64,000 nucleotides of DNA from Propionibacterium sp. (GTDB lineage: Bacteria > Actinomycetota > Actinomycetes > Propionibacteriales > Propionibacteriaceae): NCBI GenBank assembly GCA_012517405.1, contig JAAYVB010000004.1, positions 124,001 to 188,000 on the forward strand. Direction: 5' to 3'. The stretch's first letter is position 1. Each line of letters opens with the position of its first letter. The notes below the pieces were generated by a model. The model saw nothing but the letters and a program-made list of their open reading frames with translations, did no database searches and had not been told where the DNA came from. The position numbers and the translations under genes are program-made. Below are positions 34,995 to 40,168 of the stretch, in pieces.

Positions 34995-35011
34995 CTCAAT
35001 TCATGATTGAG
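34995..35011. promoter_or_regulatory. Palindrome over the start of the MshA-like gene
   Basis: CTCAAT-TCATG-ATTGAG is a perfect inverted repeat ending at the candidate TTG start. It shares TCAAT...ATTGA arms with the repeat upstream of the peptide gene at 37695-37716, which hints at a common regulator. No clear -10/-35 was identified. Confidence 0.4.
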
Positions 35012-36257
35012 TGTGCAGGTGACCAGCGCTGATCTGATAGAGCCTGCCGCCAGATCTTTGCGTGTGGTGATGGTCTCGATGCATACCTCACCCACGGCGT
35101 CCCCAGGATCGGCGGATGCGGGCGGGATGAACGTGGTGGCGCTCAATTCCGCCCTGGCGCTGGCCGAGCGCGGACATCGCGTCGACCTACTGACCCGGCG
35201 CGACGATCCGGCTGCGCCCTTCGTGGTCGAACTGTCCCCGGGAGTGCGGCTGTTCAATCTGGACGCGGGACCTGCCGAGCCGGTCGCGAAGAGCGAGCAG
35301 GAGGTCTTGATCGAGCCGTTCAGTCAGGCGCTGGCTCGTTGGTGGCGTTCGGAGGGTGCCGACGTCGATATCGTCCATTCGCATCACTGGTTCTCCGGGG
35401 TGGCGGCGCTGCCGATCGCCCGCGCCGCCGGGGTGCCGCATCTGCAGAGCTATCACTCGGTGGCGGCACCGGCCGGTGCCCCGCTCGACGACGGCGAACA
35501 GCCCGAATCATCCGGACGCAATGCCGGCGAGCGCTTGGTCGCCGAGCAGTCGGACGGGATCATCGCGGTCAGCCAGGCCGAGAAGGCGACCGTCGTCGAA
35601 CGCCTGGGGGCCGCCCCCGAATGCGTGCGGGTGGTGCACCCGGGGGTGAACGTCGATCAGTTCCGGCCGCTTCGTCCCGGCGAACCGCATTGGGCCTGGG
35701 ACGGCTGTTACCTCCTGTTCGCCGCGCGACTTCAGCCGCTGAAGGCACCCGATCTGGCAGTGCGGATGCTCGCGGCGATGCCGGCCGGCGAGCGTCCACG
35801 ACTGGTGATCGCCGGAGAGACGTCGGCCGATTTCTCGTGGTACACCCAGGAACTGCGCGATCTGGTCGACTCGCTGGGGCTGACCGATGAGGTGACCTAT
35901 CTCGGCTCGCAGGACCGCGACGAGCTGGCCGCCATGATGCGCGGTGCCTGCGCGCTGCTGAACCCCAGTCGTTCCGAGACCTACGGTCTGATCAATCTGG
36001 AGGCATCGGCTTCGGGCGTCCCGGTGGTAGCCAGCCGAAATGGGGGCATGCCGGAGTCGGTGATCGACGACGTGACCGGATTGCTGCTCGACAGCCGCGA
36101 TCCCGAGGTGTGGGCCGAGGCGGTGAGCAGGTTCACCCATGAACCCGAGTACCGTGCCGCGTTCGGGCGGGCCGGTCGCGAGTTCGCGCTGACCCGCGCC
36201 TGGCCGGTCGTGGCCAAAGAATTGGAGACCATCTACCTTCAGGAGGTGGCGCCATGA
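35007..36257 (+). CDS. MshA-like GT4 glycosyltransferase
   Basis: The 416-residue protein is a two-domain GT-B glycosyltransferase. The N-terminus (VMVSMHTSPTASPGSADAGG then MNV) is the MshA hallmark: the SxHTSPxxxPGxxDxGGMNV loop. VHSHHWFSG and LLNPSRSETYGLINLEASAS (the E-x7-E region) are also conserved. MshA joins UDP-GlcNAc to inositol-3-phosphate in mycothiol synthesis. The sequence beyond these motifs is divergent, so another acceptor is possible. A TTG start at 35007 is used; GTG 35013 or 35019 are alternatives, and none has a good ribosome site. Translationally coupled with the next gene. Confidence 0.8.
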   Translation: MSVQVTSADLIEPAARSLRVVMVSMHTSPTASPGSADAGGMNVVALNSALALAERGHRVDLLTRRDDPAAPFVVELSPGVRLFNLDAGPAEPVAKSEQEVLIEPFSQALARWWRSEGADVDIVHSHHWFSGVAALPIARAAGVPHLQSYHSVAAPAGAPLDDGEQPESSGRNAGERLVAEQSDGIIAVSQAEKATVVERLGAAPECVRVVHPGVNVDQFRPLRPGEPHWAWDGCYLLFAARLQPLKAPDLAVRMLAAMPAGERPRLVIAGETSADFSWYTQELRDLVDSLGLTDEVTYLGSQDRDELAAMMRGACALLNPSRSETYGLINLEASASGVPVVASRNGGMPESVIDDVTGLLLDSRDPEVWAEAVSRFTHEPEYRAAFGRAGREFALTRAWPVVAKELETIYLQEVAP

Positions 36258-37033
36258 GGACGCCACTCGATGTGCTTGCCGGCGCTGCCGAATCCGACTC
36301 AATAGTTCCGCTGTTCGTGCACGCCCATCCCGACGACGAGACCGTGCAGACCGGCTCCCTGCTGGCGTGGCTGGCGGCCCAGGGGCTGCCGGTGAGCGTG
36401 CTGACCTGCACCCGGGGCGAGCAGGGCGAAATCGTTTCGGGGGTGCTGCCCGCATCGACTACGGCAGATGAGTTGGTCCGGGTGCGCGAGGCAGAACTGG
36501 CGCACGCGATCGAGACGCTCGGAGTGGCTGCGTCCTACTTTTTGGGGACGCCACCTGCCAGGGCCGCCGGGCTCGGACGACGGGACTACCACGATTCGGG
36601 GATGCGCTGGGTGGCCGAAGGCCTGGCCGGGCCCGCCGATATCGACGATCCGGACACCTTCACCGCGTCCCGCCTGGACGACGAGGTCGCCGACCTGCTG
36701 GCGCTGATCGATCGGGTCCGGCCGACGGTCGTCGTGGGCTATGACCGGCTGGGCAGCTACGGGCATCCCGATCATGTTCGGGCTCACGAACTCGCGGCTG
36801 TTGCTGCTGAGGCCGCCGGCCTGCCGCTTGTCGAGGTGGCCTCGGATCCCGACACCGACGGGTTCGAGTGGTTCGATCTGTCCGATCGCAAGCAGACGGT
36901 GATCCAGGCGTTGCGCTGCTACGCCACCCAGCTGACCGTGGTCGATGCCCACATCGTCCATGTCGGCGGTCAGCATCAGGCCCTGCCCCTGAGGGCCGGG
37001 CTGCGAGTGAAGGCGGATAGGGTCATCCCGTGA
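36254..37033 (+). CDS. MshB-like PIG-L deacetylase
   Basis: The 259-residue zinc amidase of the LmbE/PIG-L family has the first metal motif VHAHPDDE (His25, Asp27, Asp28) and the second ligand in GHPDH (about residue 170). RDYHDSGM resembles MshB (GRWRDSGM). MshB removes acetate from GlcNAc-inositol, step two of mycothiol synthesis, so it is a logical partner for the MshA-like gene. ATG 36254 overlaps the upstream TGA and its TGA overlaps the response-regulator ATG, so the three proteins are co-translated. A general sugar deacetylase role cannot be excluded. Confidence 0.82.
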   Translation: MRTPLDVLAGAAESDSIVPLFVHAHPDDETVQTGSLLAWLAAQGLPVSVLTCTRGEQGEIVSGVLPASTTADELVRVREAELAHAIETLGVAASYFLGTPPARAAGLGRRDYHDSGMRWVAEGLAGPADIDDPDTFTASRLDDEVADLLALIDRVRPTVVVGYDRLGSYGHPDHVRAHELAAVAAEAAGLPLVEVASDPDTDGFEWFDLSDRKQTVIQALRCYATQLTVVDAHIVHVGGQHQALPLRAGLRVKADRVIP

Positions 37034-37716
37034 GGATGATCGGCGAGCCCGATCAGGGCACGATCCGGGTGCTCCTCGTCGAGGACGAGGCGCTCGCGCA
37101 GCGCGCCATCGCCGCCTATCTGGCCGTGGCCGACGGCATTCAGCTGGTGGGTGTGGCCAATGACGGCCTGGAGGCGATCCAGCTGGCCACCGAAGTGGCT
37201 GCCGATGTCGCTATCGTCGACATCCACATGCCCCGGCTGAACGGCATCGAGACGACCCGGCGGCTGACCCGCAGCCCGTTCAACCTCAAGGTGCTCTGCT
37301 TCACCGCGCTGGCCAGCGATGAACTCCTGATCGACGCGTTGTCTGCCGGTGCGTCCGGCTTCCTGCTCAAATCGGACAGCCCCGAACTCATCCAGCATGG
37401 GGTGCGCAGCGCGCATTCCGGTGACGCGCTGATCTCTCCGCAACTGGTCTGCCAGGTACTAGCCCGCGTGCAGACCCGGACGCAGCCCCCGGCCGACCTT
37501 TCGGCGACCGAGGTCGACCTCGTCCGGCTGATCGGCTACGGACTGACGAACGCCCAGATCGGTACCCGGCTGGGCTACTCCATCAGCACCGTGAAGACCT
37601 ACGTGAGCCGCCTGCTGACGCGGCTCGACAGGCGTAATCGTGCCGAGATCGCGACCCTGGCCTACGAATGGGGACTCGTCGACGAGCGCAAGGGTCAATC
37701 AACCAAAGTTGATTGA
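37030..37716 (+). CDS. NarL/LuxR-type response regulator
   Basis: A 228-residue protein. The receiver domain (12-130) has the acidic pair Glu18/Asp19, phospho-acceptor Asp64 (VDIHMP), switch Thr in CFTALAS and Lys in LLKSDSP. The C-terminal LuxR HTH (about 155-215) reads LSATEVDLVRLIGYGLTNAQ, IGTRLGYSISTVKTYVSRLL. Start overlaps the deacetylase gene. The kinase is 240 bp downstream, with a short peptide gene between. A perfect inverted repeat spans its stop codon and could be its own binding site for the peptide promoter. Confidence 0.92.
   Translation: MRMIGEPDQGTIRVLLVEDEALAQRAIAAYLAVADGIQLVGVANDGLEAIQLATEVAADVAIVDIHMPRLNGIETTRRLTRSPFNLKVLCFTALASDELLIDALSAGASGFLLKSDSPELIQHGVRSAHSGDALISPQLVCQVLARVQTRTQPPADLSATEVDLVRLIGYGLTNAQIGTRLGYSISTVKTYVSRLLTRLDRRNRAEIATLAYEWGLVDERKGQSTKVD
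37695..37716. promoter_or_regulatory. Inverted repeat upstream of the peptide gene
   Basis: TCAATCAAC (37695-37703) and GTTGATTGA (37708-37716) are perfect reverse complements around CAAA. It covers the end of the response-regulator gene, 72 bases before the peptide ATG. The AT-rich sequence in a GC-rich region fits a response-regulator operator, or a weak terminator hairpin. Confidence 0.5.
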
Positions 37717-37787
37717 GCCGGTGTGCGTTCCTGTGAAGGCCGTGCCGCGGGTTAGCCTGTAGCCAACCATCGCGGGAAGGAGTTGCC

Positions 37788-37910
37788 ATGAGCGCACCGA
37801 TCACTGTGTCCGCAATCGCCAAGTATGCGGCGATCGCCGGATTGGTCATCACGAACTTCAGCAGCGGAGAGGCCTGGTACTGCCAGGTCTTCTTCTGGGT
37901 ATGCCGCTAA
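37788..37910 (+). CDS. Unrecognised 40-residue two-cysteine peptide, candidate signal
   Basis: The short gene has a strong Shine-Dalgarno (AAGGAG six bases before the ATG) and encodes MSAPITVSAIAKYAAIAGLV followed by a Gly/Ser turn (TNFSSGEA) and the aromatic end WYCQVFFWVCR. Two cysteines (residues 32 and 39) flank a six-residue hydrophobic loop, allowing a disulfide- or thioether-bridged octapeptide ring. Residues 8-22 could form an amphipathic or membrane helix. It stands between a response regulator and a multi-TM histidine kinase on the same strand, the layout of peptide-pheromone systems. No modification or export gene is adjacent. I do not recognise the family; coding is inferred from the ribosome site and position. 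Confidence 0.6.
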   Translation: MSAPITVSAIAKYAAIAGLVITNFSSGEAWYCQVFFWVCR

Positions 37911-37953
37911 CCAGCTCGCTGGCCTCCCACAGATTCGGGGGCTCTACCGATTC

Positions 37954-39150
37954 TTGCAGTCCGGATGGGTGGAGTTGTCGCTGGCACTGCTGGCGGTCGG
38001 CATCGGCATCTCCAGTCCCCCGGAAACAGCGTTGACCTGGCTGACGCTGGCGGTGTTCGGCGTCGGTGCGGCCGTTTCGGGGATCGCAGTCCTGCTCGGT
38101 ACGGCGTTGGTCTGCGTCGGCTTGCTCATCTCGCTCACGTTGCCGCCCGACCAGGTTTCGGCCGCCGGGCTGGCGCTGTTCGTGCCGATCATTGCGGCTG
38201 TGCGGCTCTGGTCTCGGTATGCCATCGCGATCACTCTCGTCCTGGTCGGTCTCGGCTTCTACACGATGTTCGTCCACGCGACCGGTGATCGTCCGCTCAC
38301 GCTTGCCATCGTCGCGATCTTCCCGACCCTCCTGGCGCTGAGCCTGGGCGCGGGCCTGGTGATACGGTCGTCGCGCCAACAGCTGGAGAACGAGCGGCAG
38401 CGAGCGGACGAGCGGTTGGCCGAGCTGCGCCTGGAACTCGCCCGCGAACTGCACGACAACGCTGTTCACAAGATCTCGCAGGCCGCCATGCTCGCGCACA
38501 TGGCGGCTCTGCACCCTGATACCCCGCCCGAGCTGAGCCGGGAATTCACCGAGATCGCGACCTCTTGTAATGACGCGGCCCACGAGCTGCGCCTGCTGCT
38601 GACCGGTTTGCGCCAGGACAATCCCAGCCTCAGCGACGGCCAACCGCAGATCATCGACGCAGACGCATTGATCGCGCTCGTCGAAGGTCAGGCCGACCGG
38701 CTGGCCGCCCTCGGTTTCACCGTCACCCACGATCTCAACATCAATGCGCCGACGAGCCTGCAATGCCGCACGCTCGCCGCGATCAGCGTCGAAGCCGTCA
38801 ACAACATCATCCAGCACGCGCCGGCGAGGAGCGACTGCAGCATCCGGGTTGTGCAGCAGGGCTCCACGGTGGTGGCCGAGTTCACCAACCACACCCGTAG
38901 CGCCAGGCAAGCGGCCACTCGGCCGTCGTTCGGCCTGCTCGGCATCGAGGAGCGCGCCAGGGCGGCGGGCGGGTACATCACGATCAGCAAACCGCCGGGT
39001 TATTGGCGGCTGGAGGTCACGCTGCCCTCGCTGCCGTCGGTGGTCGATGCCGAACCTCGCTCTCAGAGCCCCGCAGCATCACCGACCTTTCCGCCGGAGC
39101 AGGGGAAACCGTCATTGACCGACGCGAGACCGACCGACTACCGGATCTGA
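37954..39150 (+). CDS. Multi-TM HisKA_3-type sensor histidine kinase
   Basis: About 398 residues. The N-terminal 130 residues are six hydrophobic helices with little extracellular sequence, suggesting sensing within or at the membrane. The dimerisation domain has the phospho-acceptor His167 (ARELHDNAVHKISQ). The HATPase domain has VEAVNNIIQHA (N box) and FGLLGIEERARAAGG (G box). It is the HisKA_3 partner expected for a NarL-type regulator. The frame opens back to 37825 across the peptide gene, but the first reasonable start after the peptide is TTG 37954 (or GTG 37969). The C-terminal 45 residues are disordered. Confidence 0.88.
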   Translation: MQSGWVELSLALLAVGIGISSPPETALTWLTLAVFGVGAAVSGIAVLLGTALVCVGLLISLTLPPDQVSAAGLALFVPIIAAVRLWSRYAIAITLVLVGLGFYTMFVHATGDRPLTLAIVAIFPTLLALSLGAGLVIRSSRQQLENERQRADERLAELRLELARELHDNAVHKISQAAMLAHMAALHPDTPPELSREFTEIATSCNDAAHELRLLLTGLRQDNPSLSDGQPQIIDADALIALVEGQADRLAALGFTVTHDLNINAPTSLQCRTLAAISVEAVNNIIQHAPARSDCSIRVVQQGSTVVAEFTNHTRSARQAATRPSFGLLGIEERARAAGGYITISKPPGYWRLEVTLPSLPSVVDAEPRSQSPAASPTFPPEQGKPSLTDARPTDYRI

Positions 39151-39187: not shown

Positions 39188-40168
39188 TCAGAACAGCCCC
39201 GCGGGAGCGGTGGGGGGAGCGTAGACGGGATCGACGCCCTGGAAGAGCTTGCTGACTGAGCGTCCCTGATGGATGCGTCCGATCGCTTCAGCGAAAAGCG
39301 GAGCGACACTGATCGTGGTCAGTTCGGGCCAGCCGGTCGGCGGCGGCACGGTGTCGGTGGCGACCACATTGTCGATGAACTCGTTGGTGCGCAGCCGCTC
39401 GACGGCGCGTCCGGCGAACAGCCCATGGGTGCAGGCAACCGTCACCGACAGAACGCCGAAGTCCCGGAGCCGTTGGGTGATCTCGAGGATCGACCCGCCG
39501 GTGGCGATCTCGTCGTCCAGCACGATCGCGTGCCGCCCGGTGACATCGCCGACGATCGAATCGACCACCACTCTGTCATCTGCCAATCGCCGCTTGCTGC
39601 CGGCGGCGACCGGCAGCCCGAGTAGCCGGGCGAACTGGGTGGCGTTCTTCGCGTTGCCCAGGTCGGGGCTGACGACTACGCCATTGCTCAGATCGGTGGC
39701 GCGGAAATGGTCCGCCAGCACCCCGAGCGCAGTCAGCTGATCGACCGGACAGCTGAAGAAGCCCTGCACCTGCGGCGAGTGCAACTGCATCGTCAGCACT
39801 CTCGAAACCCCCGCAGTGACCAAGAGATCGGCGACCAGGCGCCCGCCCAGCGATATGCGGGAGGCGTCCTTCTTGTCCGAACGCGCGTAGGAGTAGTGCG
39901 GAATCACAGCGGTGATCTGGGCTGCGGATGCTCCGCGGGCCGCATCGATCATCAGCAGCAACTCCATCAGGTGTTCCTGAGTTCGCGGAACCAGCGGCTG
40001 GATGATGTAAACGTCGCGCTGCCGGACATTGGTCAGCAACTGGGCCTGCAGGCAGTCATTGCTGAACCGGCTGAGGCGCACCGGCGACACCCTGGTGCCC
40101 AGGTGTTCACAGATCTGATTGGCGAACGTTTGGTGCGCCGATCCGGAGAAGATGACGATGTCCTTCAC
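39188..40168 (-). CDS. prs: Ribose-phosphate pyrophosphokinase (PRPP synthetase)
   Basis: The 326-residue protein shows the PRPP synthetase pattern: IFSGSAHQTFANQICEHLGT at the N-terminus, the catalytic flexible loop in PHYSYARSDKKD, and the PRPP-binding VVLDDEIATGGSI. It makes PRPP from ribose-5-phosphate and ATP for nucleotide, NAD, His and Trp synthesis. The sequence departs from the canonical type (YARSDKK in place of YARQDRK; SIxVAPLFAEAI near the end), so it may be a secondary isoform. It ends tail to tail with the histidine kinase. Confidence 0.88.
   Translation of the reverse strand: MKDIVIFSGSAHQTFANQICEHLGTRVSPVRLSRFSNDCLQAQLLTNVRQRDVYIIQPLVPRTQEHLMELLLMIDAARGASAAQITAVIPHYSYARSDKKDASRISLGGRLVADLLVTAGVSRVLTMQLHSPQVQGFFSCPVDQLTALGVLADHFRATDLSNGVVVSPDLGNAKNATQFARLLGLPVAAGSKRRLADDRVVVDSIVGDVTGRHAIVLDDEIATGGSILEITQRLRDFGVLSVTVACTHGLFAGRAVERLRTNEFIDNVVATDTVPPPTGWPELTTISVAPLFAEAIGRIHQGRSVSKLFQGVDPVYAPPTAPAGLF

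Follow-up and report, generated by a model that had tools for sequence, protein, structure and literature searches.

Lying between genes for a response regulator and a sensor kinase in a 64,000-nucleotide stretch of Propionibacterium sp. DNA (positions 124,001 to 188,000 of contig JAAYVB010000004.1, assembly GCA_012517405.1; hereafter the window) is a gene of 40 codons, and the question this locus raises is whether so short a gene encodes a signal that the neighboring kinase perceives. An earlier note, made from the DNA letters, had proposed a peptide-signaling unit from the order of regulator, 40-residue cysteine peptide and multi-helix kinase, and this order was borne out by open reading frames (ORFs) and Pfam domains, all three genes being on the plus strand of the 3.17-Mb genome. 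The regulator is NarL-type (37030-37716; Response_reg 7.8e-22, GerE 9.1e-10) and has 74% identity to its counterpart in a second species of the genus (genome G006). The short gene (37788-37910, plus strand) has the strong Shine-Dalgarno sequence that had been claimed for it, AAGGAG at 37777-37782, 5 nucleotides upstream of its ATG. Its 40-residue product, MSAPITVSAIAKYAAIAGLVITNFSSGEAWYCQVFFWVCR, is a predicted pheromone precursor with six residues between C32 and C39, eight when both cysteines are counted, which agrees with the proposed eight-residue ring CQVFFWVC (37881-37904, plus strand), presumably closed by a disulfide. With a ribosomally made precursor encoded beside its kinase and regulator, the locus has the gene makeup of the three-component peptide-pheromone class. 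We give a probability of about 0.7 to the reading that these genes form an autoinducing peptide-pheromone system, in which a cysteine-pair ring would be made without a dedicated maturation enzyme and which some lineages would have wired to bacteriocin-type targets.

The peptide was present in three of the eight genomes of the genus: the window's own, a second genome of the same species (G002) with a gene identical over 123 nucleotides, and G006, where the peptide has 55% identity (E-value 4.6e-9). The remaining five had no match to the kinase profile described below at E<=1e-40. Comparing the window and G006 genes over 39 codons gave 15.5 synonymous and 25.5 non-synonymous changes and a ratio of non-synonymous to synonymous change (pN/pS) of 0.47, showing for this pair the conservation of reading frame on which the earlier note had made its proposal depend. 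Judged from its sequence, the 40-residue gene is real and conserved, and more than a chance ORF. A search of 197 genomes with the peptide alone as query was abandoned: matches at E<=1 were obtained in 42 genomes, those beyond the three known genomes (E<=4.6e-9) were all 0.13 or weaker, and a single weak match (locus L020, genome G171) turned out to be real. Short queries fail for finding this peptide family.

We also approached the family through its kinases. When 198 genomes of the family Propionibacteriaceae were searched with a profile built from 19 kinases, 20 genomes matched at E<=1e-87, followed by a gap to 2e-60, and we refer to these 20 as the core loci. At E<=1e-45, core-type kinases were found in 43 of 391 genomes of the order, all of them within the family and none outside it, and in a 106-row tree the core kinases formed one clade with a Shimodaira-Hasegawa-like approximate likelihood ratio support of 100. 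Genomes with core loci include those of Arachnia, Tessaracoccus sp. OH4464_COT-324, Micropruina glycogenica and [Pseudopropionibacterium] massiliense; one locus (L231, from G002) duplicates the window's species. An intact cysteine-pair gene stood upstream of the kinase in 16 of the 20, 15 found by a strict scan for ORFs led by a Shine-Dalgarno sequence and one (L247) by looser scans, so that homologs at the corresponding position, for which the earlier note had called, were found in most related loci.

Beyond the core there were 72 more distant family kinases. At least 48 of these were accompanied by a precursor bearing the same tail, encoded either ahead of the kinase or divergently, and nearly all of the precursors start with a Sec-like signal. 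The count comprises 24 credible precursors of the 25 listed by a second scan, three from other scans and 21 of the remaining 45 by looser criteria; L202, L210 and L056 are included as members, L220 was dropped as unconvincing, and L188 is member-like but uncounted, as are three profile matches (L175, L182 and L183) and six forward matches of the strict scan that look spurious (L058, L179, L196, L199, L215 and L221). Among control kinases of other actinobacterial families, the strict scan gave one forward and one reverse match in 73, the second scan one in 72 and the looser scan one in 71, and two of these four, the reverse match of the strict scan and the match of the second scan, were true family members (L074 and L087). 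A typical distant ring is CDLFPWWPGC. Proline at position +4 from the first cysteine was found in 14/16 core peptides and 41/47 others, the cysteines enclosing six residues in 13/16 of the former and eight in 35/47 of the latter (47 is used here since one of the 48 distant peptides fitted no single spacing). In an alignment of 43 peptides the only invariant columns were those of C32 and C39 of the window peptide, the two residues that the earlier note had wanted checked; this invariance is partly by construction, because most of the aligned peptides were found with a cysteine-pair pattern. Of the 64 collected peptides, 43 were scanned and none matched a known Pfam or NCBIfam family over cut-off (best E-values 0.011 and 0.02, respectively, each family being matched by one member). 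Literature searches in PMC turned up no paper that, judged by title or start of abstract, describes this system; subscription papers and preprints lay mostly outside the scope of those searches.

The association between tail and kinase was also seen when kinases played no part in the search. When the 198 genomes were searched for the tail itself with a profile of 18 distant peptides (A3), 44 matches at E<=0.003 were obtained, spread over 36 genomes, and at 29 of the 30 match loci examined there was a kinase of this radiation. The profile's own members account for 18 of the 30, and a kinase was found at 11 of the other 12. Of seven examined loci whose kinase was new to the analysis, six hold one (two of these six are near-identical). 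In three sets of control loci the corresponding counts were 1/27, the one being the true member L020, 0/15 and 0/15. These results bear on the idea that the short ORF is a leader or chance ORF affecting only translation of the kinase. It does end just upstream of the kinase gene, and translational coupling is possible; yet conservation at the amino-acid level, the occurrence of the same tail in genes on the strand opposite to the kinase, and the ability of a tail profile to find kinases leave this explanation with almost no credit. Because this unannotated peptide family stands beside related kinases across one bacterial family, the 40-residue gene probably encodes a cell-to-cell signal, and the pheromone-type reading that the earlier note drew from genomic position gains support from both the same-place homologs and the family-wide association.

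The kinase of the window (probably 37954-39150, plus strand) matched HisKA_3 with an E-value of 5.2e-10 (40.2 bits against a Pfam cut-off of 24). An AlphaFold2 model (mean predicted local distance difference test score 81) has six membrane helices joined by short loops and then the kinase core, in line with the earlier description of a six-helix kinase with almost no extracellular domain. The model has the DesK-like cytoplasmic fold of HisKA_3 kinases; DesK was among the best solved matches in a structure comparison, in which a bacteriophytochrome ranked first. The start first listed for the kinase, ATG 37825, sits within the peptide gene, into which the kinase reading frame stays open, and is probably not the true one. 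Because G002 has one extra G in the run at 37937-37941, the start probably lies downstream of that run, e.g., at TTG 37954. In G002 the kinase gene is itself broken by a ~1.3-kb insertion with a transposase-like protein, which we take to be ISAs1-like, and since the insertion interrupts the kinase this strain may be deaf to the signal.

In both the window and G006 the peptide has a hydrophobic leader (hydropathy of the best 19 residues 1.70 and 1.98, respectively) with no clear cleavage site, and with only short loops between the helices of the modeled kinase one can picture a membrane-bound small protein that tunes the kinase of its own cell by helix-helix contact and carries no intercellular message, a behavior with a reported precedent in ScrA acting on SaeS (PMC12239555). 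We think this unlikely, as it is the C-terminal ring and not the helix that is conserved, and many distant members have Sec-like signals and then a spacer before the ring. The earlier note had left open whether the peptide is exported or acts inside the membrane, and the relatives with Sec-like signals suggest export over action solely inside the membrane.

Elements that could close a feedback loop were found upstream of the peptide genes. The upstream regions of core loci have a common motif, AAAGTTGAY, and the 8-mer AAAGTTGA occurred in 8 of 17 such regions; no 8-mer reached more than 5 regions in 100 shuffles, or more than 6 in 200 sets of random stretches drawn from 15 loci. At the window locus the motif forms a perfect dyad, the predicted operator CAATCAAC-CAAA-GTTGATTG (37696-37715, no strand assigned), which overlaps the last codons of the regulator and is the only match in the window at <=3 mismatches, 9 of 100 shuffles also having one. 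With a matrix built from 12 sites, 14 of the 20 core loci had a score >=16 where the site was expected, among them L237, L238 and L245, whose sites were outside the training set, that of L245 lying before a bacteriocin gene; leave-one-out scores ranged from 10.0 to 24.2, and a control of 627 kb contained 3 sites >=16. Between the operator and the peptide gene lies a putative promoter-like element, GGTTAGCCTGTAG (37750-37762, plus strand), that resembles GGCTAACCTGTAG of G006, the two being 38 and 42 nucleotides before the ATG. Lying upstream of the peptide gene, these operator-like sites may allow the regulator to activate the precursor gene; in G006 the dyad is a different one.

Under the pheromone reading, export, processing, disulfide formation, ligand binding and regulator-operator binding, along with any targets in this species, would fit together as follows. 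The N-terminal helix would bring the 40-residue precursor to the membrane with its C-terminus exposed outside, where the two cysteines would close an eight-residue hydrophobic ring, probably by a disulfide. This ring, either free or still anchored, would be sensed by the six-helix kinase, which would phosphorylate the NarL-type regulator, and the regulator would give positive feedback by binding the AAAGTTGAY dyad that precedes the peptide gene. In some relatives it may also bind upstream of bacteriocin, ATP-binding cassette (ABC) transporter or nonribosomal peptide synthetase (NRPS) genes.

The candidate targets in relatives were of several kinds. An aureocin A53-type bacteriocin scored over the PF11758 cut-off in 5 of the 198 genomes, and in four of these (G045, G074, G089 and G106) the distance to the core kinase was no more than about 3.3 kb, and no more than 0.6 kb in three; the fifth (G055) has no such arrangement, and G184 has a weaker relative. 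Among neighbors analyzed for domains, a set that excludes G089, bPH_2 proteins stood beside the bacteriocin in L241, L242, L243 and L245 and ABC ATPases in L241, L243 and L245. In L063, L241 and L242 an operator-like site lay in the interval between the bacteriocin gene and the peptide gene. In L233 and L238 the core kinase is followed by a small ORF for a membrane protein, then an ABC ATPase and a large membrane protein. Among the distant loci, L201 has an operator-like site before an ABC ATPase gene, and L220 and L229 each have one before an NRPS condensation-domain gene, between it and the kinase. The small membrane ORFs of L233 (4942-5274, minus strand) and L238 (2862-3077, plus strand) share the segment ..SSPLGSLxKTKFDT.., and the large protein has 530 residues; there was no Pfam match for the small ORFs of either locus or the large protein of L238, and the small ORF of L238 had no counterpart in the window's genome.

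Neighbors of this sort also raise the thought that the peptide is itself antimicrobial, production or immunity being turned on when the kinase perceives it. Aureocin-type bacteriocins, ABC ATPases and NRPS genes do adjoin some loci, and in G074 a bacteriocin gene occupies the place where the peptide gene is expected. We nevertheless consider it improbable, more so than the helix-contact explanation: Asp or Glu directly follows the first cysteine in 22/47 distant rings, unlike cationic bacteriocins; four core loci hold both the peptide and a separate bacteriocin or relative (L063, L241 and L243, and more weakly L242); and no immunity or export gene recurred in all core loci. The gene neighborhoods of core kinases vary between genera. 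ABC-ATPase-like ORFs were present in 14 of 19 core stretches, with none in those of the window, G006, G002, L234 (a short stretch) and L246. Two tested 532-residue ORFs were of the soluble ABC-F type, with two ABC domains and an ABC_tran_Xtn linker, and the ABC proteins near bacteriocins were ordinary ABC ATPases; no single exporter is therefore shared, although ABC genes are common nearby.

Several observations weigh against the pheromone reading. The leader of the window peptide departs from a textbook signal peptide and has no clear peptidase site, and the peptide has Phe rather than Pro at +4. The earlier note had taken absence of the peptide gene from relatives that keep the kinase and regulator as grounds for giving up the proposal, and this absence holds for 2 of the 20 core loci (G183, also without an operator-like site, and G074), next to the 16 with an intact gene. 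In L240 and L244 the tail is recognizable with the likely start in another frame; these genes are decayed or assembly errors. Among the 72 distant kinases, 24 had no peptide by our scans, the criteria of which were loosened after the first results. Six of the 20 core loci had no strong operator-like site at the expected place (G006, L234, L244, L246, L247 and L239); one of these, L239, is among the loci without a peptide gene, and G006 has another dyad, ATCGAT-CTAA-ATCGAT, and not AAAGTTGA. In the window's genome an aureocin-type bacteriocin was not found at E<=0.05, nor was one near the window locus, and there was no convincing target beyond the peptide gene. A regulon prediction there, which scored the 15 sites within one mismatch of the 12-mer rather than the whole genome, was rejected as unconvincing. 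One site was exact, that of the window locus, and the two others >=16 bits lay one inside a gene (L265), presumably glycosyltransferase-like, and one in an intergenic stretch (L261), between what we take to be rplL-like and rpoB-like genes.

The window's genome holds a second unit of the family, outside the window and about 88 kb from the 40-residue peptide gene. A Sec-type profile run across 394 genomes of the class matched 16 at E<=0.01, about the number expected by chance, and among these sampled genomes none of the 15 besides the window's had a match adjoining such a kinase; the match in the window's genome (C40, the contig of the window itself, 73875-73931, E 0.0086) is a real unit. It consists of a 72-residue ORF with a Sec-like start and the end LCRLFPWLPACRNV; next to this stand a NarL-type regulator in convergent orientation and a kinase that scores weakly against HisKA_3 (E 0.0017, under the cut-off). 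The unit (about 71.96-75.38 kb of C40; L289:5960-9380) adjoins a 301-residue protein that has a twin-Arg-like segment and is rich in Cys at its C-terminus; there may be a likeness to halocin C8-type bacteriocins, but Pfam and NCBIfam did not find it. We lean slightly towards a broader proposal, in which two-cysteine ring pheromones would serve as a language throughout Propionibacteriaceae without any enzyme dedicated to modifying or exporting them. Each precursor would have a HisKA_3 kinase of its own, lineages would have rewired the switch to NRPS genes, ABC transporters and leaderless bacteriocins, and the window's genome would carry two of these units.

The genes flanking the window unit were assigned by Pfam: a glycosyltransferase and a PIG-L deacetylase upstream (35007-37033), presumably the mycothiol genes mshA and mshB, and a ribose-phosphate pyrophosphokinase (39188-40168) and an AMP-binding enzyme downstream. 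In agreement with the earlier note, the Pfam domains of these four neighbors point to none that would mature or export the peptide, and no such gene lies within the unit.

Kinase-sensed peptide pheromones are known mainly from Firmicutes. If our reading is right, Propionibacteriaceae would have a general peptide signaling system, in species of Arachnia, Tessaracoccus and Micropruina among others, with a pheromone ring made by two cysteines alone, and there would be a short candidate synthetic inducer as well as a handle on silent bacteriocins and other products.

Of the known systems, ComQXPA of Bacillus subtilis likewise has its peptide gene beside that of a polytopic kinase, whose domain is HisKA_3 (PF07730), along with a regulator of LuxR/GerE type (PMC4008528). 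The window unit combines a HisKA_3 kinase that has a multi-helix sensor with a GerE regulator, and both peptides have a Trp near the C-terminus; however, the tail here has a cysteine pair and not a prenylated Trp, the order is regulator-peptide-kinase, and the system was found here only in Propionibacteriaceae. A ComQ-like isoprenyl transferase was absent both beside the window genes (four neighbors, Pfam) and among families present in >=3 of the 19 core stretches (crude ORFs). The cyclic autoinducing peptides of agr and Fsr are similar in having a small ring with hydrophobic residues, a membrane kinase and autoinduction, and differ in that here two invariant cysteines replace the thiolactone or lactone and the kinase is HisKA_3 with a NarL-type regulator; no AgrB-like protease was found beside the window genes or recurring in core loci (crude ORFs, 19 stretches). 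Three-component systems of class II bacteriocins (e.g., BlpC, plantaricin) also place an inducer peptide, kinase and regulator beside bacteriocin genes, whereas here the sequences have no double-Gly leader, no single exporter occurs in all loci, and the kinase class differs. Finally, leaderless clusters of the aureocin A53 and lacticin Q kind resemble the neighborhoods of four core loci with a bacteriocin over the PF11758 cut-off, three of the four also having bPH_2 proteins, as does a fifth locus whose bacteriocin relative is weaker, and ABC ATPases lying near three. According to a 2018 review (PMC6131525), leaderless bacteriocins have no apparent regulatory mechanism in common, LnqR being named for lacticin Q; what sets the present loci apart is that a peptide-kinase unit adjoins the bacteriocins.

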